A stretch of DNA of 64,000 nucleotides, from positions 507,435 through 571,434 of the forward strand of contig NZ_LMOI01000018.1 in NCBI RefSeq assembly GCF_001423525.1, written 5' to 3'. The DNA comes from Arthrobacter sp. Leaf137. Lineage in GTDB: Bacteria; Actinomycetota; Actinomycetes; Actinomycetales; Micrococcaceae. Below the pieces are notes generated by a model. That model searched no databases. It saw nothing but the letters and a program-made list of their open reading frames with translations, and was not told the DNA's origin. Position numbers and translations under genes: made by a program. Within the stretch, counting starts at the first letter, position 1, and each line of letters begins with the position of its first letter. Of the stretch, positions 33,530-54,217 are shown piece by piece.

Positions 33530-33635
33530 GGGCCGCTGAATTTCCCCTGGCTTGGCCCGCGGCGCAGGGCGGACGACGGCGCGTTGCCGGGACGCGCCGT
33601 CGTCCGCCCTGAAAGGTGGGGAAAGTCAGCGGCCC
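33530..33635. repeat. Nested long inverted repeat between ppgK and the amylosucrase gene
   Basis: Outer arms 33530-33547 and 33618-33635 (18 bases, one mismatch) enclose perfect 17-base inner arms 33567-33583 and 33593-33609 with a 9-base loop. Together they could fold into one long interrupted hairpin. It begins 22 bases past the ppgK stop, so it could end that operon, but there is no T-run on either side. Confidence 0.85.
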
Positions 33636-33738
33636 GCACCTGCCGCGCCACACCCCAAAGTGTGACGTGGCATACTTCGGTACAAAAGCCGGCTGCTTCA
33701 TTCAGGGCACGCCCGGCGTCAGCGGAAAGGGCCGTGAC

Positions 33739-35652
33739 ATGCAGGAATCCGTCAGCGTGGAGGACAGCCCGCGGCAGCAGGTTCTGGCAGCACTGGCCAG
33801 CGAACAGGCTGCCGGTCTCGCGGCGGACCCTGACTTCCACCGGCGGCTGGACCGGTACCTCCGGCTGCTGACCGGCCTGTTCCGCCCGCTGTACGGCACC
33901 CGGGCGGACTGGCAGGACCAGCTGGCAGCCCTGGTGGTCCAGGCCGCCCGGTCCTGGCAGGAGCGCGCCCCGGAACTCAAAGCCCTGGACGCTGAGCGGG
34001 AGGCAAACCCGCACTGGTTCCAGTCCAACGGCATGCTGGGCGGCGTCTGCTACGTGGACCGCTACGCGGAGAGCCTGGAAGGGGTTCGCAGCAGCATCCC
34101 CTATTTCAAGGAACTCGGCCTCACCTACCTGCACCTGATGCCGCTGTTCCTGGCACCCGAGCCGCATTCGGACGGCGGCTATGCGGTGTCCAGCTACCGG
34201 CAGGTCAACCCCAAACTGGGCACCATGGAACAGCTGCGTTCACTCGCGGCCGAGCTGCGCAGCAACGGGATCAGCCTGGTGGTGGACTTCATTTTCAACC
34301 ACACCTCGGACGAACACTTGTGGGCCAGGAAAGCCGCCTCGGGAGACCTGGAGTACAGCGACTACTACTGGATCTTCCCGGACCGGACCATGCCCGACGC
34401 CTTCGAGCAGGACGTCCGGGAGATCTTCCCCGAGAACCACCCGGGTTCCTTCATCCGCATGGAGGACGGCCGCTGGGTGTGGGCCACGTTCCACACGTAC
34501 CAGTGGGATTTGAACTACTCGAACCCCGACGTGTTCCGGGCCATGGCGGGCGAGATGCTGTTCCTGGCCAACCAGGGCGTGGACATCCTGCGCATGGATG
34601 CCGTGGCGTTCATCTGGAAGCAGCTGGGCACCACCTGCGAGAACCTTCCCGAGGCCCACACCCTGCTCCGGGCCTTCAACGCGGTGTGCCGGCTCGCGGC
34701 GCCGTCGCTACTGTTCAAGTCGGAGGCAATCGTGCACCCGGACGAGGTGGCGCTCTACATCGACCCCGCCGAATGCCAGCTCTCCTACAACCCGCTGCAG
34801 ATGGCGCTCATCTGGGAATCCCTGGCCACCCGGGATGTGTCCCTATTGGCGCAGGCGCTCGAACGCCGGCACAAGATCCCGGACGGCACCGCCTGGGTGA
34901 ACTACGTCCGCAGCCACGACGACATCGGGTGGACCTTCGCCGACGAGGACGCCGCCGAACTGGGCATCAACGGCTTCGACCACCGCCGCTTCCTGAACTC
35001 GTTCTACGTCAACCGGTTCCCCGGCAGTTTCGCCCGCGGCGTGCCGTTCCAGGACAACCCCCGCACCGGGGACTGCAGGATTTCAGGGACGACGGCGTCG
35101 CTGTGCGGCCTGGAGGACAGTCCGGCGGAAGCGGTGGAACGGATCCTCCTGGCCCACTCGGTCCCGTTCAGCACCGGCGGCATCCCGCTGCTCTACCTGG
35201 GCGACGAGGTAGGGCAGGTCAACGACTATGGCTACGCCGGCGAACCCGGCCACGGGGAGGACAGCCGCTGGGTGCACCGCCCGCACTATCCGTCGGCGCA
35301 GTACAAACTTCGCAACGACCCTTCCACGCCCGCGGGTGCTGTCTACGCGGGGCTGCGCCGGATGACGGAAGTCCGGGCCGGCACCCCCGAACTGGCGGGC
35401 ACGCAGCTGATCGACTTCGCCACGCACAACCGCTCGGTGCTGGCGTACCAGCGGCCCGGCGCTTCTCCGGAAAGCACCCGGGTGCTGGCCCTGGCCAACT
35501 TCAGCGACTCCGCCCAGGACCTGCCGGCAGAAACGTTCGGCGGGTTCGCCCCGGCCGCCGTCGACCTTCTCTCCGAAGCTGCGGTGCAGCTGGACGGGGG
35601 CGTCACGCTCCTCCCCCGGCAGTACCTCTGGCTGCGCGTCACGCCCGTCTAG
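33739..35652 (+). CDS. Amylosucrase
   Basis: A 637-residue GH13 enzyme. The catalytic residues Asp287 (LRMDAVAF), Glu329 (FKSEAIV) and Asp394 (VRSHDDIGW) are each one residue off the Neisseria polysaccharea amylosucrase numbers (286, 328, 393), and the length matches too. The helical N-terminal domain (about 1-90) is also present. Amylosucrase builds alpha-1,4-glucan from sucrose and releases fructose, or moves glucosyl units to acceptors. ATG 33739 has a GGAAAGG ribosome site. The gene is separated from ppgK by a large hairpin and may have its own promoter. Confidence 0.93.
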   Translation: MQESVSVEDSPRQQVLAALASEQAAGLAADPDFHRRLDRYLRLLTGLFRPLYGTRADWQDQLAALVVQAARSWQERAPELKALDAEREANPHWFQSNGMLGGVCYVDRYAESLEGVRSSIPYFKELGLTYLHLMPLFLAPEPHSDGGYAVSSYRQVNPKLGTMEQLRSLAAELRSNGISLVVDFIFNHTSDEHLWARKAASGDLEYSDYYWIFPDRTMPDAFEQDVREIFPENHPGSFIRMEDGRWVWATFHTYQWDLNYSNPDVFRAMAGEMLFLANQGVDILRMDAVAFIWKQLGTTCENLPEAHTLLRAFNAVCRLAAPSLLFKSEAIVHPDEVALYIDPAECQLSYNPLQMALIWESLATRDVSLLAQALERRHKIPDGTAWVNYVRSHDDIGWTFADEDAAELGINGFDHRRFLNSFYVNRFPGSFARGVPFQDNPRTGDCRISGTTASLCGLEDSPAEAVERILLAHSVPFSTGGIPLLYLGDEVGQVNDYGYAGEPGHGEDSRWVHRPHYPSAQYKLRNDPSTPAGAVYAGLRRMTEVRAGTPELAGTQLIDFATHNRSVLAYQRPGASPESTRVLALANFSDSAQDLPAETFGGFAPAAVDLLSEAAVQLDGGVTLLPRQYLWLRVTPV

Positions 35653-35663
35653 ACCCGCGCTTC

Positions 35664-35729
35664 CCCAACCAGGTAGCAGCAGGTGTCGGTTTGGGGGCCC
35701 AAGACAGCATTTGCTGCTACTCAGTTGGG
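35664..35729. repeat. 66-bp palindromic element, copy A
   Basis: An imperfect palindrome with outer ends CCCAAC...GTTGGG, inner GTAGCAGCA / TGCTGCTAC and a central GGGGGCCC. It starts 12 bases past the amylosucrase stop and ends 32 bases before prephenate dehydratase. A second copy in opposite orientation lies at 44947-45012. This looks like a REP-type dispersed element; it may also act as a terminator. Confidence 0.85.
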
Positions 35730-35761: not shown

Positions 35762-36619
35762 ATGGCCCAAAAGATTGCGTACCAGGGTGAGCCCGGCGCC
35801 AACTCCAATATCGCGTGCAAGCAGATGTTCCCCCACATGGACAGCGTCCCCTGCGCCAGCTTCGAGGACGCCTTTGAACTGGTCTCCAGCGGCGAGGCGG
35901 ACCTGGCCATGATCCCCATCGAGAACTCCATCGCCGGCCGGGTGGCGGACATCCACATCCTGCTGCCGCAGTCCAACCTGCAGATAGTGGGCGAATTCTT
36001 CCTGCCCATCCACTTCGACCTGCTGGGTATCCCGGGCAGCACCATCGAGGGTGCCACCGAGGTCCACAGCCACATCCACGCCCTGGGCCAGTGCCGGAAG
36101 CTCATCCGCGAGCACGGCCTCAAACCCGTCATCGCGGGCGACACCGCCGGGTCCGCCCGCGAGGTGGCGGAGTGGAACGATCCCCGCAAGCTTTCCCTCG
36201 CTCCCCCGCTGGCCGCCCAGATCTACGGCCTCGACGTTCTCGCCTCCAGGGTGGAGGACGATCCCTCCAACACCACCCGCTTCGTGGTCCTGGCCCGGGA
36301 AACCGCGCTGCCGGCCAGGGATGAACTTCCCGGACCGGCAGTCACCAGCTTCGTGTTCCGCGTCCGCAACGTGCCCAGTGCCCTGTACAAGGCGCTGGGC
36401 GGGTTCGCCACGAACGGCGTGAACATGACGCGGCTGGAGAGCTACATGGTGGGCGACGAGTTCGCGGCCACCATGTTCATGGCCGACGTCGAAGCGCACC
36501 CGGAGGACACTCCCCTTCGGCTGGCGCTCGAGGAACTGGAGTTCTTCACCACCGAGGTGCGGATCCTCGGGGTGTACGCCGCGGCGGACCACCGGGCGGC
36601 CCGCACCCCGGCGGCCTGA
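35762..36619 (+). CDS. pheA: Prephenate dehydratase
   Basis: Converts prephenate to phenylpyruvate in phenylalanine synthesis. The 285-residue protein has the prephenate dehydratase domain (IAYQGEPGANS at the start, MIPIENSIAGRVADIH, and DDPSNTTRFVVL with the TRF motif). A C-terminal ACT domain for phenylalanine feedback follows (TSFVFRVRNVPSALYKALGGFATNGVNMTRLES). ATG 35762 is chosen from the conserved N-terminus; the ribosome site is weak. No other aromatic biosynthesis gene is adjacent. Confidence 0.95.
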   Translation: MAQKIAYQGEPGANSNIACKQMFPHMDSVPCASFEDAFELVSSGEADLAMIPIENSIAGRVADIHILLPQSNLQIVGEFFLPIHFDLLGIPGSTIEGATEVHSHIHALGQCRKLIREHGLKPVIAGDTAGSAREVAEWNDPRKLSLAPPLAAQIYGLDVLASRVEDDPSNTTRFVVLARETALPARDELPGPAVTSFVFRVRNVPSALYKALGGFATNGVNMTRLESYMVGDEFAATMFMADVEAHPEDTPLRLALEELEFFTTEVRILGVYAAADHRAARTPAA

Positions 36620-43423: not shown

Positions 43424-44935
43424 ATGACGACCTCAACAGAAACTGCCAAGCACTACATTCCCGAGGACCTGCCCACCCACATCCAGCACTACATCAACGG
43501 CCAGTTCGTTGACTCCGTTGGCGGCAAGACCTTCGACGTCCTGGACCCGGTGTCCAACACGAACTACGCCACCGCCGCGGCCGGCCAGAAGGAAGACATC
43601 GACCTCGCCGTCGCCGCCGCGCGCGAAGCGTTCGTGAATGGCCCCTGGCCCAGGATGAAGCCGCGCGAACGCGCCAGGATCCTGAACCGGATCGCTGACG
43701 CCGTGGAGACGCAGGAGGGGCGCCTCGCCGAACTCGAAACCTTCGACACCGGCCTGCCCATCACCCAGGCCAAAGGCCAGGCACTGCGCGCGGCCGAGAA
43801 TTTCCGCTTCTTTGCGGACCTGATCGTGGCCCAGTTCGACGACGCCATGAAGGTCCCCGGCTCGCAGATCAACTACGTGAACCGCAAGCCGATCGGCGTC
43901 GCCGGCCTGATCACCCCGTGGAACACCCCCTTCATGCTCGAGTCCTGGAAGCTCGCCCCTGCCCTGGCTACCGGCAACACCGTGGTCCTCAAGCCAGCCG
44001 AGTTCACGCCGTTGTCCGCATCCCTTTGGGCCACCATCTTCAAGGACGCCGGCCTCCCGGACGGTGTGTTCAACCTGGTCAACGGCCTGGGCGAGGAAGC
44101 GGGCGACGCCCTGGTCAAGCACCCGGACGTTCCGCTGATTTCCTTCACCGGCGAGACCACCACCGGCCAGACCATCTTCCGCAACGCCGCCACCAACCTC
44201 AAGGGCCTGTCCATGGAACTCGGCGGCAAGTCCCCGTGCGTCGTGTTCGCCGACGCGGACCTGGACGCCGCCATCGACTCGGCCCTGTTCGGCGTCTTCT
44301 CCCTCAACGGCGAGCGCTGCACCGCCGGCTCCCGCATCCTCGTGGAACGCGCCATCTACGACGACTTCTGTGAGAAGTACGCCGCCCGGGCCAGGAACAT
44401 CGTGGTGGGCGACCCCCACGACCCCAAGACCCAGGTGGGCGCCCTGGTCCACCCCGAGCACTACGAGAAAGTCGCTTCCTACGTGGAGATCGGCAAGTCC
44501 GAAGGCCGGCTCCTGGCCGGCGGCGGCCGCCCGGACCACCTCCCTGACGGCAACTACATCGCACCCACGGTGTTTGCCGACGTCGCCCCCGACGCGCGGA
44601 TCTTCCAGGAGGAAATCTTCGGACCCGTTGTGGCCATCACCCCGTTCGAGAATGACAACGAAGCCCTCGCCCTCGCGAACAACACCAAGTACGGCCTGGC
44701 GGCCTATATCTGGACCCAAAACCTGACCCGGGCCCACAATTTCTCCCAGAACGTCGAAGCCGGCATGGTGTGGCTGAATAGCCACAACGTCCGGGACCTC
44801 CGCACCCCGTTCGGCGGCGTCAAGGCCTCGGGCCTGGGGCACGAGGGCGGCTACCGCTCCATCGACTTCTACACCGACCAGCAGGCCGTGCACATCACCC
44901 TCGGCAGCGTCCACACCCCCAAATTCGGCGCCTAA
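43424..44935 (+). CDS. hpaE: 5-carboxymethyl-2-hydroxymuconate semialdehyde dehydrogenase
   Basis: Oxidises the ring-cleavage product of homoprotocatechuate to 5-carboxymethyl-2-hydroxymuconate with NAD+. The 503-residue ALDH has catalytic Cys299 (NGERCTAGSR) and Glu265 (SMELGGKSP) and the TPWNTPFMLESWKLAPALATGNT cofactor segment typical of HpaE. The operon position between HpaG-like and HpaD supports the specificity. ATG 43424 follows AAAGGA. Confidence 0.94.
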   Translation: MTTSTETAKHYIPEDLPTHIQHYINGQFVDSVGGKTFDVLDPVSNTNYATAAAGQKEDIDLAVAAAREAFVNGPWPRMKPRERARILNRIADAVETQEGRLAELETFDTGLPITQAKGQALRAAENFRFFADLIVAQFDDAMKVPGSQINYVNRKPIGVAGLITPWNTPFMLESWKLAPALATGNTVVLKPAEFTPLSASLWATIFKDAGLPDGVFNLVNGLGEEAGDALVKHPDVPLISFTGETTTGQTIFRNAATNLKGLSMELGGKSPCVVFADADLDAAIDSALFGVFSLNGERCTAGSRILVERAIYDDFCEKYAARARNIVVGDPHDPKTQVGALVHPEHYEKVASYVEIGKSEGRLLAGGGRPDHLPDGNYIAPTVFADVAPDARIFQEEIFGPVVAITPFENDNEALALANNTKYGLAAYIWTQNLTRAHNFSQNVEAGMVWLNSHNVRDLRTPFGGVKASGLGHEGGYRSIDFYTDQQAVHITLGSVHTPKFGA

Positions 44936-44946
44936 GCACCACCCCG

Positions 44947-45012
44947 CCCAACTGACTCGCAGTTGTTGTCGTTATGGGCCCCCAAAACGACATCTGCTGC
45001 TACCCAGTTGGG
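44947..45012. repeat. 66-bp palindromic element, copy B (inverted relative to copy A)
   Basis: Same length and ends as the element at 35664-35729 but in reverse orientation: CCCAAC...GTTGGG with central GGGCCCCC and an inner TGCTGCTAC. Its GTAGCAGCA half is nearly identical to that of copy A. It starts 11 bases past the hpaE stop and ends 33 bases before hpaD, so it lies inside the operon and is unlikely to be a full terminator. Confidence 0.85.
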
Positions 45013-45045: not shown

Positions 45046-46140
45046 ATGACCAACTTCGTCCCCACTCCCACCGTCCCGGCCCCGGACATCGTCCGCTGCG
45101 CCTACATGGAAATCGTGGTCACCGACCTCGCCAGGTCCCGCGCGTTCTACGTGGACGTCCTGGGCCTGCACGTCACCGAGGAAGATGGGAACAACATCTA
45201 CCTGCGCTCCCTGGAGGAGTTCATCCACCACAACCTGGTCCTCCGCCAAGGCCCCATCGCCGCCGTCGCAGCATTCGCCTACCGGGTGAAGTCGCCCGCC
45301 GAAGTGGACGCCGCCGAAGCCTACTACCGCGAACTCGGCTGCCGCGTGGAGCGCCGCAAGGACGGCTTTACCAAGGGCATCGGCGACTCCGTCCGCGTTG
45401 AGGACCCGCTGGGCTTCCCCTATGAGTTCTTCTACGAGACCGAGCACGTGGAACGCCTCACCCAGCGCTACGACCTCTACTCCGCCGGCGAGCTGGTCCG
45501 CCTGGACCACTTCAACCAGGTCACCCCGGACGTTCCCAAGGGCCGCAAGTACCTCGAGGACCTCGGCTTCCGCGTCTCGGAAGACATCAAGGATTCGGAC
45601 GGCGTCACGTACGCCGCGTGGATGCACCGCAAGCAGACGGTCCACGACACGGCCCTCACCGGCGGCAACGGCCCGCGCATGCACCACGTCGCCTTTGCCA
45701 CGCACGAGAAGCACAACATCATCCAGATCTGCGACAAGATGGGCGCCCTGCGCATCAGCGACAGGATTGAACGCGGTCCCGGACGGCACGGCGTCTCCAA
45801 CGCCTTCTACCTCTACATCCTGGACCCGGACGGCCACCGCATCGAGATCTACACCCAGGACTACTACACCGGCGACCCCGACAACCCCACCATCACCTGG
45901 GACGTCCACGACAACCAGCGCCGCGACTGGTGGGGCAACCCCGTGGTCCCCTCCTGGTACACCGAAGCTTCCCTGGTCCTGGACCTCGACGGCAACCCGC
46001 AGCCCGTCATCGAACGTGAGGAAAAATCCGAGATGGCGGTCACCGTGGGCGCCGACGGCTTCTCCTACACCCGCAAAGCGGACGGTGACGCCGGGCCTGC
46101 CGGGGAAGCGCAGGGTTTCAAGCTGGGAGCGCAGGTCTGA
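45046..46140 (+). CDS. hpaD: 3,4-dihydroxyphenylacetate (homoprotocatechuate) 2,3-dioxygenase
   Basis: Extradiol ring cleavage of homoprotocatechuate. The 364-residue two-module VOC protein has metal ligands His155, His214 and Glu267 and second-sphere His200 and Tyr257. These are the same residue numbers as in the Mn(II) enzyme MndD of Arthrobacter globiformis and the Fe(II) enzyme of Brevibacterium fuscum. Which metal is used cannot be read from sequence. ATG 45046 has an AAGAAGAGAGA ribosome site; an upstream GTG-type extension crosses the palindromic repeat. Confidence 0.97.
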   Translation: MTNFVPTPTVPAPDIVRCAYMEIVVTDLARSRAFYVDVLGLHVTEEDGNNIYLRSLEEFIHHNLVLRQGPIAAVAAFAYRVKSPAEVDAAEAYYRELGCRVERRKDGFTKGIGDSVRVEDPLGFPYEFFYETEHVERLTQRYDLYSAGELVRLDHFNQVTPDVPKGRKYLEDLGFRVSEDIKDSDGVTYAAWMHRKQTVHDTALTGGNGPRMHHVAFATHEKHNIIQICDKMGALRISDRIERGPGRHGVSNAFYLYILDPDGHRIEIYTQDYYTGDPDNPTITWDVHDNQRRDWWGNPVVPSWYTEASLVLDLDGNPQPVIEREEKSEMAVTVGADGFSYTRKADGDAGPAGEAQGFKLGAQV

Positions 46141-54134: not shown

Positions 54135-54161
54135 TGGCGTTTCCTTTCAAAAGTTACGGGT

Positions 54162-54209
54162 CGGTGGCTGGGCTTGCCGAAACCTAAGTTTCGACAAGCC
54201 CAACCACCG
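54162..54209. repeat. 22-bp-stem palindrome between grpE and dnaJ
   Basis: Arms 54162-54183 and 54188-54209 pair along all 22 bases with a 4-base loop (CTAA in plus orientation). The only two sequence differences become G:U pairs in the minus-strand transcript. It contains a GTTTCGACAAGCCCAACCACC motif half. Such motifs recur in intergenic DNA of related actinobacteria as far as I recall, so it may be a dispersed REP element as well as an mRNA hairpin. Confidence 0.85.
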
Positions 54210-54217
54210 GGGTAATG

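Follow-up and report, generated by a model that had tools for sequence, protein, structure and literature searches.

Why does a 66-bp palindromic sequence recur at two gene junctions in the window (i.e., the whole 64,000-nucleotide stretch of Arthrobacter sp. Leaf137 DNA that was analyzed), and is the pair a local accident or part of something larger? Both copies were re-found exactly where the original prediction had placed them (Table 1; gene positions are those of a purpose-written gene caller), and their proposed inverted relationship holds, with agreement at 52 of 66 positions once one copy is reverse-complemented. Each is a near-palindrome, identical to its own reverse complement at 46 of 66 positions (copy 1) or 50 of 66 positions (copy 2); copy 1, the less perfect of the two, misses our strict palindrome cut-off (21 of 28 arm pairs). 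The inverted match is thus real, but the "opposite orientation" read into it means little for a near-palindrome: the family model introduced below matches both strands of copy 1 (77.6 bits on the plus strand, 60.3 bits on the minus strand) and of copy 2 (79.8 bits on the minus strand, 67.6 bits on the plus strand), and both copies are flanked by plus-strand genes. The inner arm GTAGCAGCA/TGCTGCTAC, said to be shared, is present on both sides of copy 1, but the left arm of copy 2 reads CTCGCAGTT. Both copies begin 11 nt past the upstream stop codon, with 32 and 33 nt remaining before the next gene, in line with the predicted 11–12 and ∼32 nt, but this exact spacing is not a family-wide property. 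When folded with ∼10–13 flanking bases per side, they have predicted structures with z = −5.71 (copy 1) and z = −3.62 (copy 2) relative to shuffles. Copy 2 is located within a run of four plus-strand genes, with FAA hydrolase and HpcH/HpaI family genes coming next after the PF00903 gene; judging the pathway from these domains, the surroundings look like a homoprotocatechuate-type catabolic operon.

Table 1. The two palindromic elements in the window and the genes on either side of them
Feature	Position	Strand	Description
Copy 1, 66-bp palindromic element	35664..35729	.	between alpha-amylase family gene and prephenate dehydratase
Copy 2, 66-bp palindromic element	44947..45012	.	between aldehyde dehydrogenase and glyoxalase/dioxygenase family genes
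Gene 5' of copy 1	33616..35652	+	alpha-amylase catalytic domain PF00128
Gene 3' of copy 1	35762..36619	+	prephenate dehydratase PF00800
Gene 5' of copy 2	43424..44935	+	aldehyde dehydrogenase PF00171
Gene 3' of copy 2	45046..46140	+	glyoxalase/dioxygenase superfamily PF00903

The two copies belong to a large family, hereafter family A. A BLAST search with copy 1 gave 22 matches in its own genome (both strands counted, E ≤ 10), and a covariance model built from 15 own-genome copies gave at least 65 (both strands), with at least 28 places scoring ≥48 bits; six weak matches (17–35 bits) are among those listed, and decayed copies are therefore few. The model matches all 25 same-genus genomes (own included, E ≤ 0.1), the best match in four of them being no better than 1e-11, and it gives weak matches in 2 of 14 genomes from other genera of the order. 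Across the host family, matches at E ≤ 1e-5 occur in 33 of 149 genomes, representing 13 of 32 genera. It should be noted that copy numbers per genome are lower bounds, since the best 150, 133, or 35 candidates were scored, depending on the survey. A scan of genomes of 84,980 species for the core pattern returned at least 100 stretches, picked by exact core pattern and hence favoring good copies; 99 of the 100 listed are labeled Arthrobacter, Pseudarthrobacter, Paenarthrobacter, Sinomonas, or Micrococcaceae metagenome-assembled genome, and the remaining one (L153), labeled Synergistales, matches in the core only within a sequence of 51% GC and is taken as a chance match or a mislabeling. Four plasmid records carry a match, all from Arthrobacter or Paenarthrobacter; a phage origin was rejected, there being no match in 50,697 phage records. 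The follow-up proposed with the original prediction, a search of the own and related genomes, thus turned up further copies in both, and its description of a dispersed repeat consistently placed at gene junctions holds at genome, genus, and family level. Chance or local duplication is ruled out by the at least 28 own-genome places together with the genus-wide matches.

No element at the 15 own-genome loci matches Rfam at gathering score; a ZMP/ZTP riboswitch (RF01750, 42.1 bits) lies at L003:518-603, near another own-genome copy. In Arthrobacter horti YJM1, a 60-bp version of the element is seen at L112:2117-2176, L112:3472-3531, L111:7824-7883, and L156:1458-1517. The single-contig genome G012 has at least 83 family A places, and 70% of the 83 listed fall in what we provisionally take as the origin-proximal half (Kolmogorov-Smirnov p = 4e-4); its first genes are read from sequence as dnaA, dnaN, gnd, recF, gyrB, and gyrA, and its sampled base-composition skew shows no clear origin and terminus.

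Family A copies are built from one strongly conserved half-site present as an inverted duplicate. The half-site consensus from 160 distinct copies is CCCAACT-RR-[G/C]T[A/C]GCAG-[C/T][A/T]-GATGTCGTT-[T/A]-TG-RG-S, with 19 of 33 positions conserved at ≥90%, and the inner arms rank among the most conserved parts. After correction for background, the top six covarying position pairs in the same 160 copies each join palindrome partners (taking copies as independent and ignoring shared ancestry, here as in the placement tests below). Covariation is strong at positions 10, 15, 17, 19, 20, and 23 and weak at positions 8, 9, and 28, where mismatches are frequent. A change on both sides can be seen directly at the amylase/pheA junction, where genomes G004, G006, G007, and G009 have GCGCYAA-type arms and the window copy has GCAGCAG-type arms. 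Such covariation could also have other sources, namely mutational correction of quasi-palindromes, or subfamilies that differ in binding specificity. A separate palindrome at L181:7000-7065 has family A-like ends (CCCAACTGACTCGCA) around a different core, which suggests that ends and cores have been exchanged between palindromes.

The placement of the family relative to genes is equally distinctive. The copy scan gave 166 copies at ≥40/66 (162 without duplicates); 145 score ≥50, five of these lie at locus edges, and the other 140 were classed by junction. Among these 140 copies, 85 (41 + 44) are tandem, 54 are convergent, and a single one is divergent; none of the 166 copies was classed as inside a gene. 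For comparison, the own-genome junctions with a gap of ≥66 bp (864 kb) comprise 240 tandem, 61 convergent, and 114 divergent cases, giving a divergent deficit of p = 1.6e-18 and a convergent excess (54 of 140 copies versus 61 of 415 junctions) of p = 4e-12, both p-values overstating the significance because some copies are orthologs of one another. The nearest stop codon (139 copies) is within the element in 40 cases, 0–15 nt away in 74, 16–30 nt away in 17, and beyond that in 8. A stop codon within the element is mostly the TRR of CCC AAC TRR (34 of 43 listed gene ends), and 23 of these 34 genes have Asn as their last residue, 17 of them ending in Pro-Asn. The idea that TRR (positions 7–9) is selected as a stop codon was dropped, as the two R positions look independent by counts. 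An element lies over the end of putative dnaN at L100, L164, L187, and L315:1947-3072 (the last in G012), supplying the last two codons and the stop codon; the putative DnaN terminus reads ...MPVRLPN in the three named loci and in G012.

Comparison of orthologous loci shows that sequence identity is concentrated in the element itself. Across 110 orthologous pairs, identity is 0.863 within the element and 0.50 and 0.457 in the 20 nt adjoining it on either side (flank values computed without gaps and therefore biased low), with the drop in identity coinciding with the 66-bp borders. Mean identity is 0.861 between orthologs (117 pairs), 0.819 between copies within a genome (626 pairs), and 0.820 between copies in different genomes (7124 pairs). 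Because within-genome and between-genome identity are equal, a common sequence is held across all compared genomes; to the extent that mean identities rather than a tree can tell, genome-specific subfamilies are on average absent. Genome-specific bursts or conversion among the copies of one genome were rejected on the same ground, and the pattern of mean identities points to selection by a conserved partner instead. Occupation of individual sites varies between related species: among same-genus relatives with both flanks, 4 of 9 have the pheA site of copy 1 filled and 6 of 24 the dioxygenase site of copy 2, in conflicting patterns, with G001 and G017 filled at the dioxygenase site only and G004, G006, and G007 at the pheA site only. 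The copy at the dioxygenase site in G008 is strongly diverged. Empty sites in relatives are too diverged to reveal an insertion footprint.

Our preferred reading, to which we give a little less than an even chance, is that family A is a REP-like family of 66-bp palindromic sites across the Arthrobacter group, retained at gene ends by selection. A conserved trans-acting factor would recognize the palindrome as DNA, either as a dimer site or as an extruded hairpin; alternatively, the palindrome may be needed equally on both strands. By analogy with what is thought for REP/BIME elements, the sites may mark or insulate the ends of transcription units and intercistronic gaps, a boundary role that would be only partial at copy 2, because this copy lies inside an apparent operon. 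Copies would be gained and lost over time, and those at 3' ends would be kept because selection would remove any that land in promoters or coding regions.

The palindrome could instead act at the RNA level, as a long hairpin over or behind the stop codon of the transcript that protects or processes mRNA 3' ends or, as proposed by analogy with E. coli REPs, slows translation termination. Consistent with this, the predicted hairpins are strong, and 67 of 85 tandem copies overlap the stop codon or lie ≤15 nt from it, compared with 25 of 78 other palindromes in the same genomes (p = 6e-10 on the distances). Moreover, in 31 of 85 tandem copies the next start codon follows the element at <30 nt; these copies are therefore probably transcribed through, with little room for a promoter, although family A and other palindromes are not clearly different in this spacing (p = 0.06). 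There is also precedent in E. coli, where, according to the accessible part of PMC12306157, REPs ≤15 nt from stop codons can stall ribosomes. A role in RNA only should, however, leave its mark on the sense strand, where G-U would be tolerated more than A-C. The 85 tandem copies have 76 G-U and 89 A-C mismatches on that strand (i.e., no G-U excess), whereas four of five control sets, made up of other tandem hairpins of the same genomes, give G-U shares of 0.61, 0.61, 0.63, and 0.68; the fifth set, of longest-arm hairpins, has a share of 0.54 and does not differ from family A (p = 0.26). In addition, a plain hairpin would have no need for the sequence conservation seen here. An RNA-only role is thus disfavored because the G-U excess of four of the five control sets is absent, bearing in mind that this evidence is mixed across the sets, and the mismatch data agree better with a DNA site or with a requirement on both strands. 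On balance, we regard action at the RNA level as unlikely, with an appreciable residual chance.

A broader reading, which we entertain only as a doubtful possibility, is that family A represents a single branch within a larger system of ∼55–75 bp palindromes that are interchangeable at junctions, each type having its own DNA-binding factor; their ends (CCCAAC, GAGTTTTTG, GAGTGCTC, GCGCGA) would differ, and their size, symmetry, and stop-proximal position would be common. A search of 864 kb of the own genome for long palindromes gave 39 beyond the 11 family A copies (copy 1, one of the 11, being below threshold), compared with one in a shuffled control; 22 are at convergent and 14 at tandem junctions, three are inside genes, and none is divergent. 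Recurring ends include GAGTTTTTG (4), GAGTGCTC (3), GCGCGA (7 pattern matches, of which 2 fall within genes and some lack a true palindromic structure), and GACGGCGG (18, 4 of them inside genes). Palindromes of the GAGTTTTTG...CAAAAACTC type with differing cores lie at gene ends at L146:7627-7688, L113:1973-2035, L094:2106-2168, and L256:1913-1975, the last of these occupying, in G023, the orthologous dioxygenase junction, which has no family A copy there; at the dioxygenase junction of G018, another palindrome was seen by eye. Those of the GAGTGCTC...GAGCACTC type are found at gene ends at L211:4006-4061 and L213:4005-4062 (both own genome) and at L156:7638-7692, and two weak own-genome matches to the family A model are of this type. 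GCGCGA...TCGCGC palindromes occur at L129:115-176, L163:6761-6825, L152:4292-4354, and L317:7059-7121, with inner arms (e.g., GGCAGCAGATG) similar to those of family A. The window itself has two further long palindromes at gene ends, at 33557-33619, which includes GACGACGGCG, similar to the recurrent GACGGCGG ends, and at 54158-54213, with ends GTGGCTGGGC. If this wider reading were true, the palindrome types together would be a gene-end marking system.

Could family A simply be selfish DNA, a MITE-like or REPIN-like miniature element mobilized in trans and tolerated at gene ends only? The patchy and conflicting occupation of the pheA and dioxygenase sites, the dispersal of single copies, and the presence on four plasmid records would all be in keeping with mobility, and the gene-end placement, which the original prediction read as a possible sign of targeted insertion, could also reflect selection against insertions elsewhere. 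Against this, the RAYT-type transposase that the original prediction had suggested looking for failed to appear: PF01797 (the Y1 transposase domain) was found in none of 25 same-genus genomes and in 1 of 39 genomes overall, in a search that was positive in 5 of 14 known control genomes, and RAYT mobilization was rejected. Nor is there a target duplication in 145 copies, where no count for lengths of 2–6 at four border offsets exceeded the maximum of 200 shuffles; direct repeats of two or three bases near the border, for example, numbered 17 of 145 at one offset (shuffled mean 9.6, maximum 19). A MITE with target duplication was rejected on this basis, and insertion into older hairpin loops was likewise rejected, flank complementarity in the 145 copies not going beyond shuffles. 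No longer element with the same ends was seen in the own genome, where 47 of 51 half-site matches lie within strong palindromes and the other four have 2–3 mismatches, and copies within a genome are no closer to one another than copies in different genomes. Taken together, we find a purely selfish element improbable.

Two more specific functions fare worse. An intrinsic transcription terminator would be in keeping with the over-representation at convergent junctions and with a weak terminator-like site in the left arm of copy 2 (44949-44965, a 6-pair stem with a T-rich tail), but a U-tract is rare (2 of 85 tandem copies have ≥5 T among the 8 nt that follow), and on this count a terminator with U-tract was rejected; furthermore, the full element of copy 1 is not flagged, with a short site on the other strand only, copy 2 sits within a run of catabolic genes, and termination would not need a conserved sequence, leaving this a very improbable account of the family. 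Integron attC sites have the ends RYYYAAC...GTTRRRY. Despite the similar CCCAAC...GTTGGG ends, the hairpin shape, and the location behind stop codons, we see practically no chance that family A consists of attC recombination sites, and rejected them on integrase, outer-base, and inner-arm evidence: the integron integrase model TIGR02249 is above cut-off in 0 of 39 genomes, the copies are dispersed, conservation of the inner arms is among the highest in the element, and the outer purine and pyrimidine are unconserved (A/G before the element in 85 of 145 copies, C/T after it in 70 of 145). Matches to TIGR02249 below cut-off, present in 39 of 39 genomes, are probably generic tyrosine recombinases, because the control genomes also have them (14 of 14).

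We return to the reading of family A as a selected, REP-like site family and ask how it compares with known systems. Within the open-license PMC papers that formed the scope of our literature search, no description of family A was found. The REP/BIME elements of E. coli are bound by the host proteins gyrase, IHF, and Pol I. Mycobacterial MIRUs, interspersed repeats of actinobacteria, can extend over the stop codon of the gene before them; they are direct repeats, not palindromes, and, as far as this general description goes, share stop overlap with family A and differ from it in the type of repeat. Like MITEs, family A is short, multicopy inverted-repeat DNA with a patchy distribution among relatives; unlike them, it has no interior between the inverted repeats and no target duplication, and no parent element with its ends was seen in the own genome.

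Tagged REPs are, in the accessible part of PMC3733652, catalogued mainly in Proteobacteria, with one large class tied to RAYT transposases, and both GTAG- and CGTC-tagged REPs are defined there; neither Arthrobacter nor Actinobacteria is mentioned in that text, and the count table in the accessible part of PMC12306157 contains one Arthrobacter genome. As described in the latter source, the GTAG REP/BIME elements of Enterobacteria and Pseudomonas resemble family A in being short multicopy palindromes that are extragenic, mostly behind genes, and often near stop codons. Family A is similarly extragenic and found at 3' ends, with 1 of 140 copies at a divergent junction and none of 166 classed inside a gene. 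It differs in its length of 66 bp, tagged REPs being 20–40 bp (PMC3733652, accessible part), in having GTAG within the paired stem only and not as an unpaired end tag, and in the lack of a RAYT domain (0 of 25 same-genus genomes with a match). REPs usually number >100 per genome (PMC2817692, accessible part), compared with at least 28 family A copies in the own genome and at least 83 in G012. With the CGTC-tagged REPs, family A shares the apparent lack of a dedicated transposase, but these have an unpaired CGTC tag at one end instead of symmetric CCCAAC/GTTGGG ends, and the hosts given in the accessible part of PMC3733652 are Proteobacteria, Chlorobi, Bacteroidetes, Spirochaetes, and Thermotogae, with Actinobacteria not among them. 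Family A resembles REP/BIME most, yet it departs from tagged REPs in tag, length, and RAYT.

A genus-wide actinobacterial family that is free of RAYT, apparently constrained in sequence at its loci, and covarying in its arms offers a means of distinguishing a site useful to the host from mobile DNA that is just tolerated. Its members can contain the stop codon of a host gene, and they provide a testable motif behind core genes, such as putative dnaN in four genomes.
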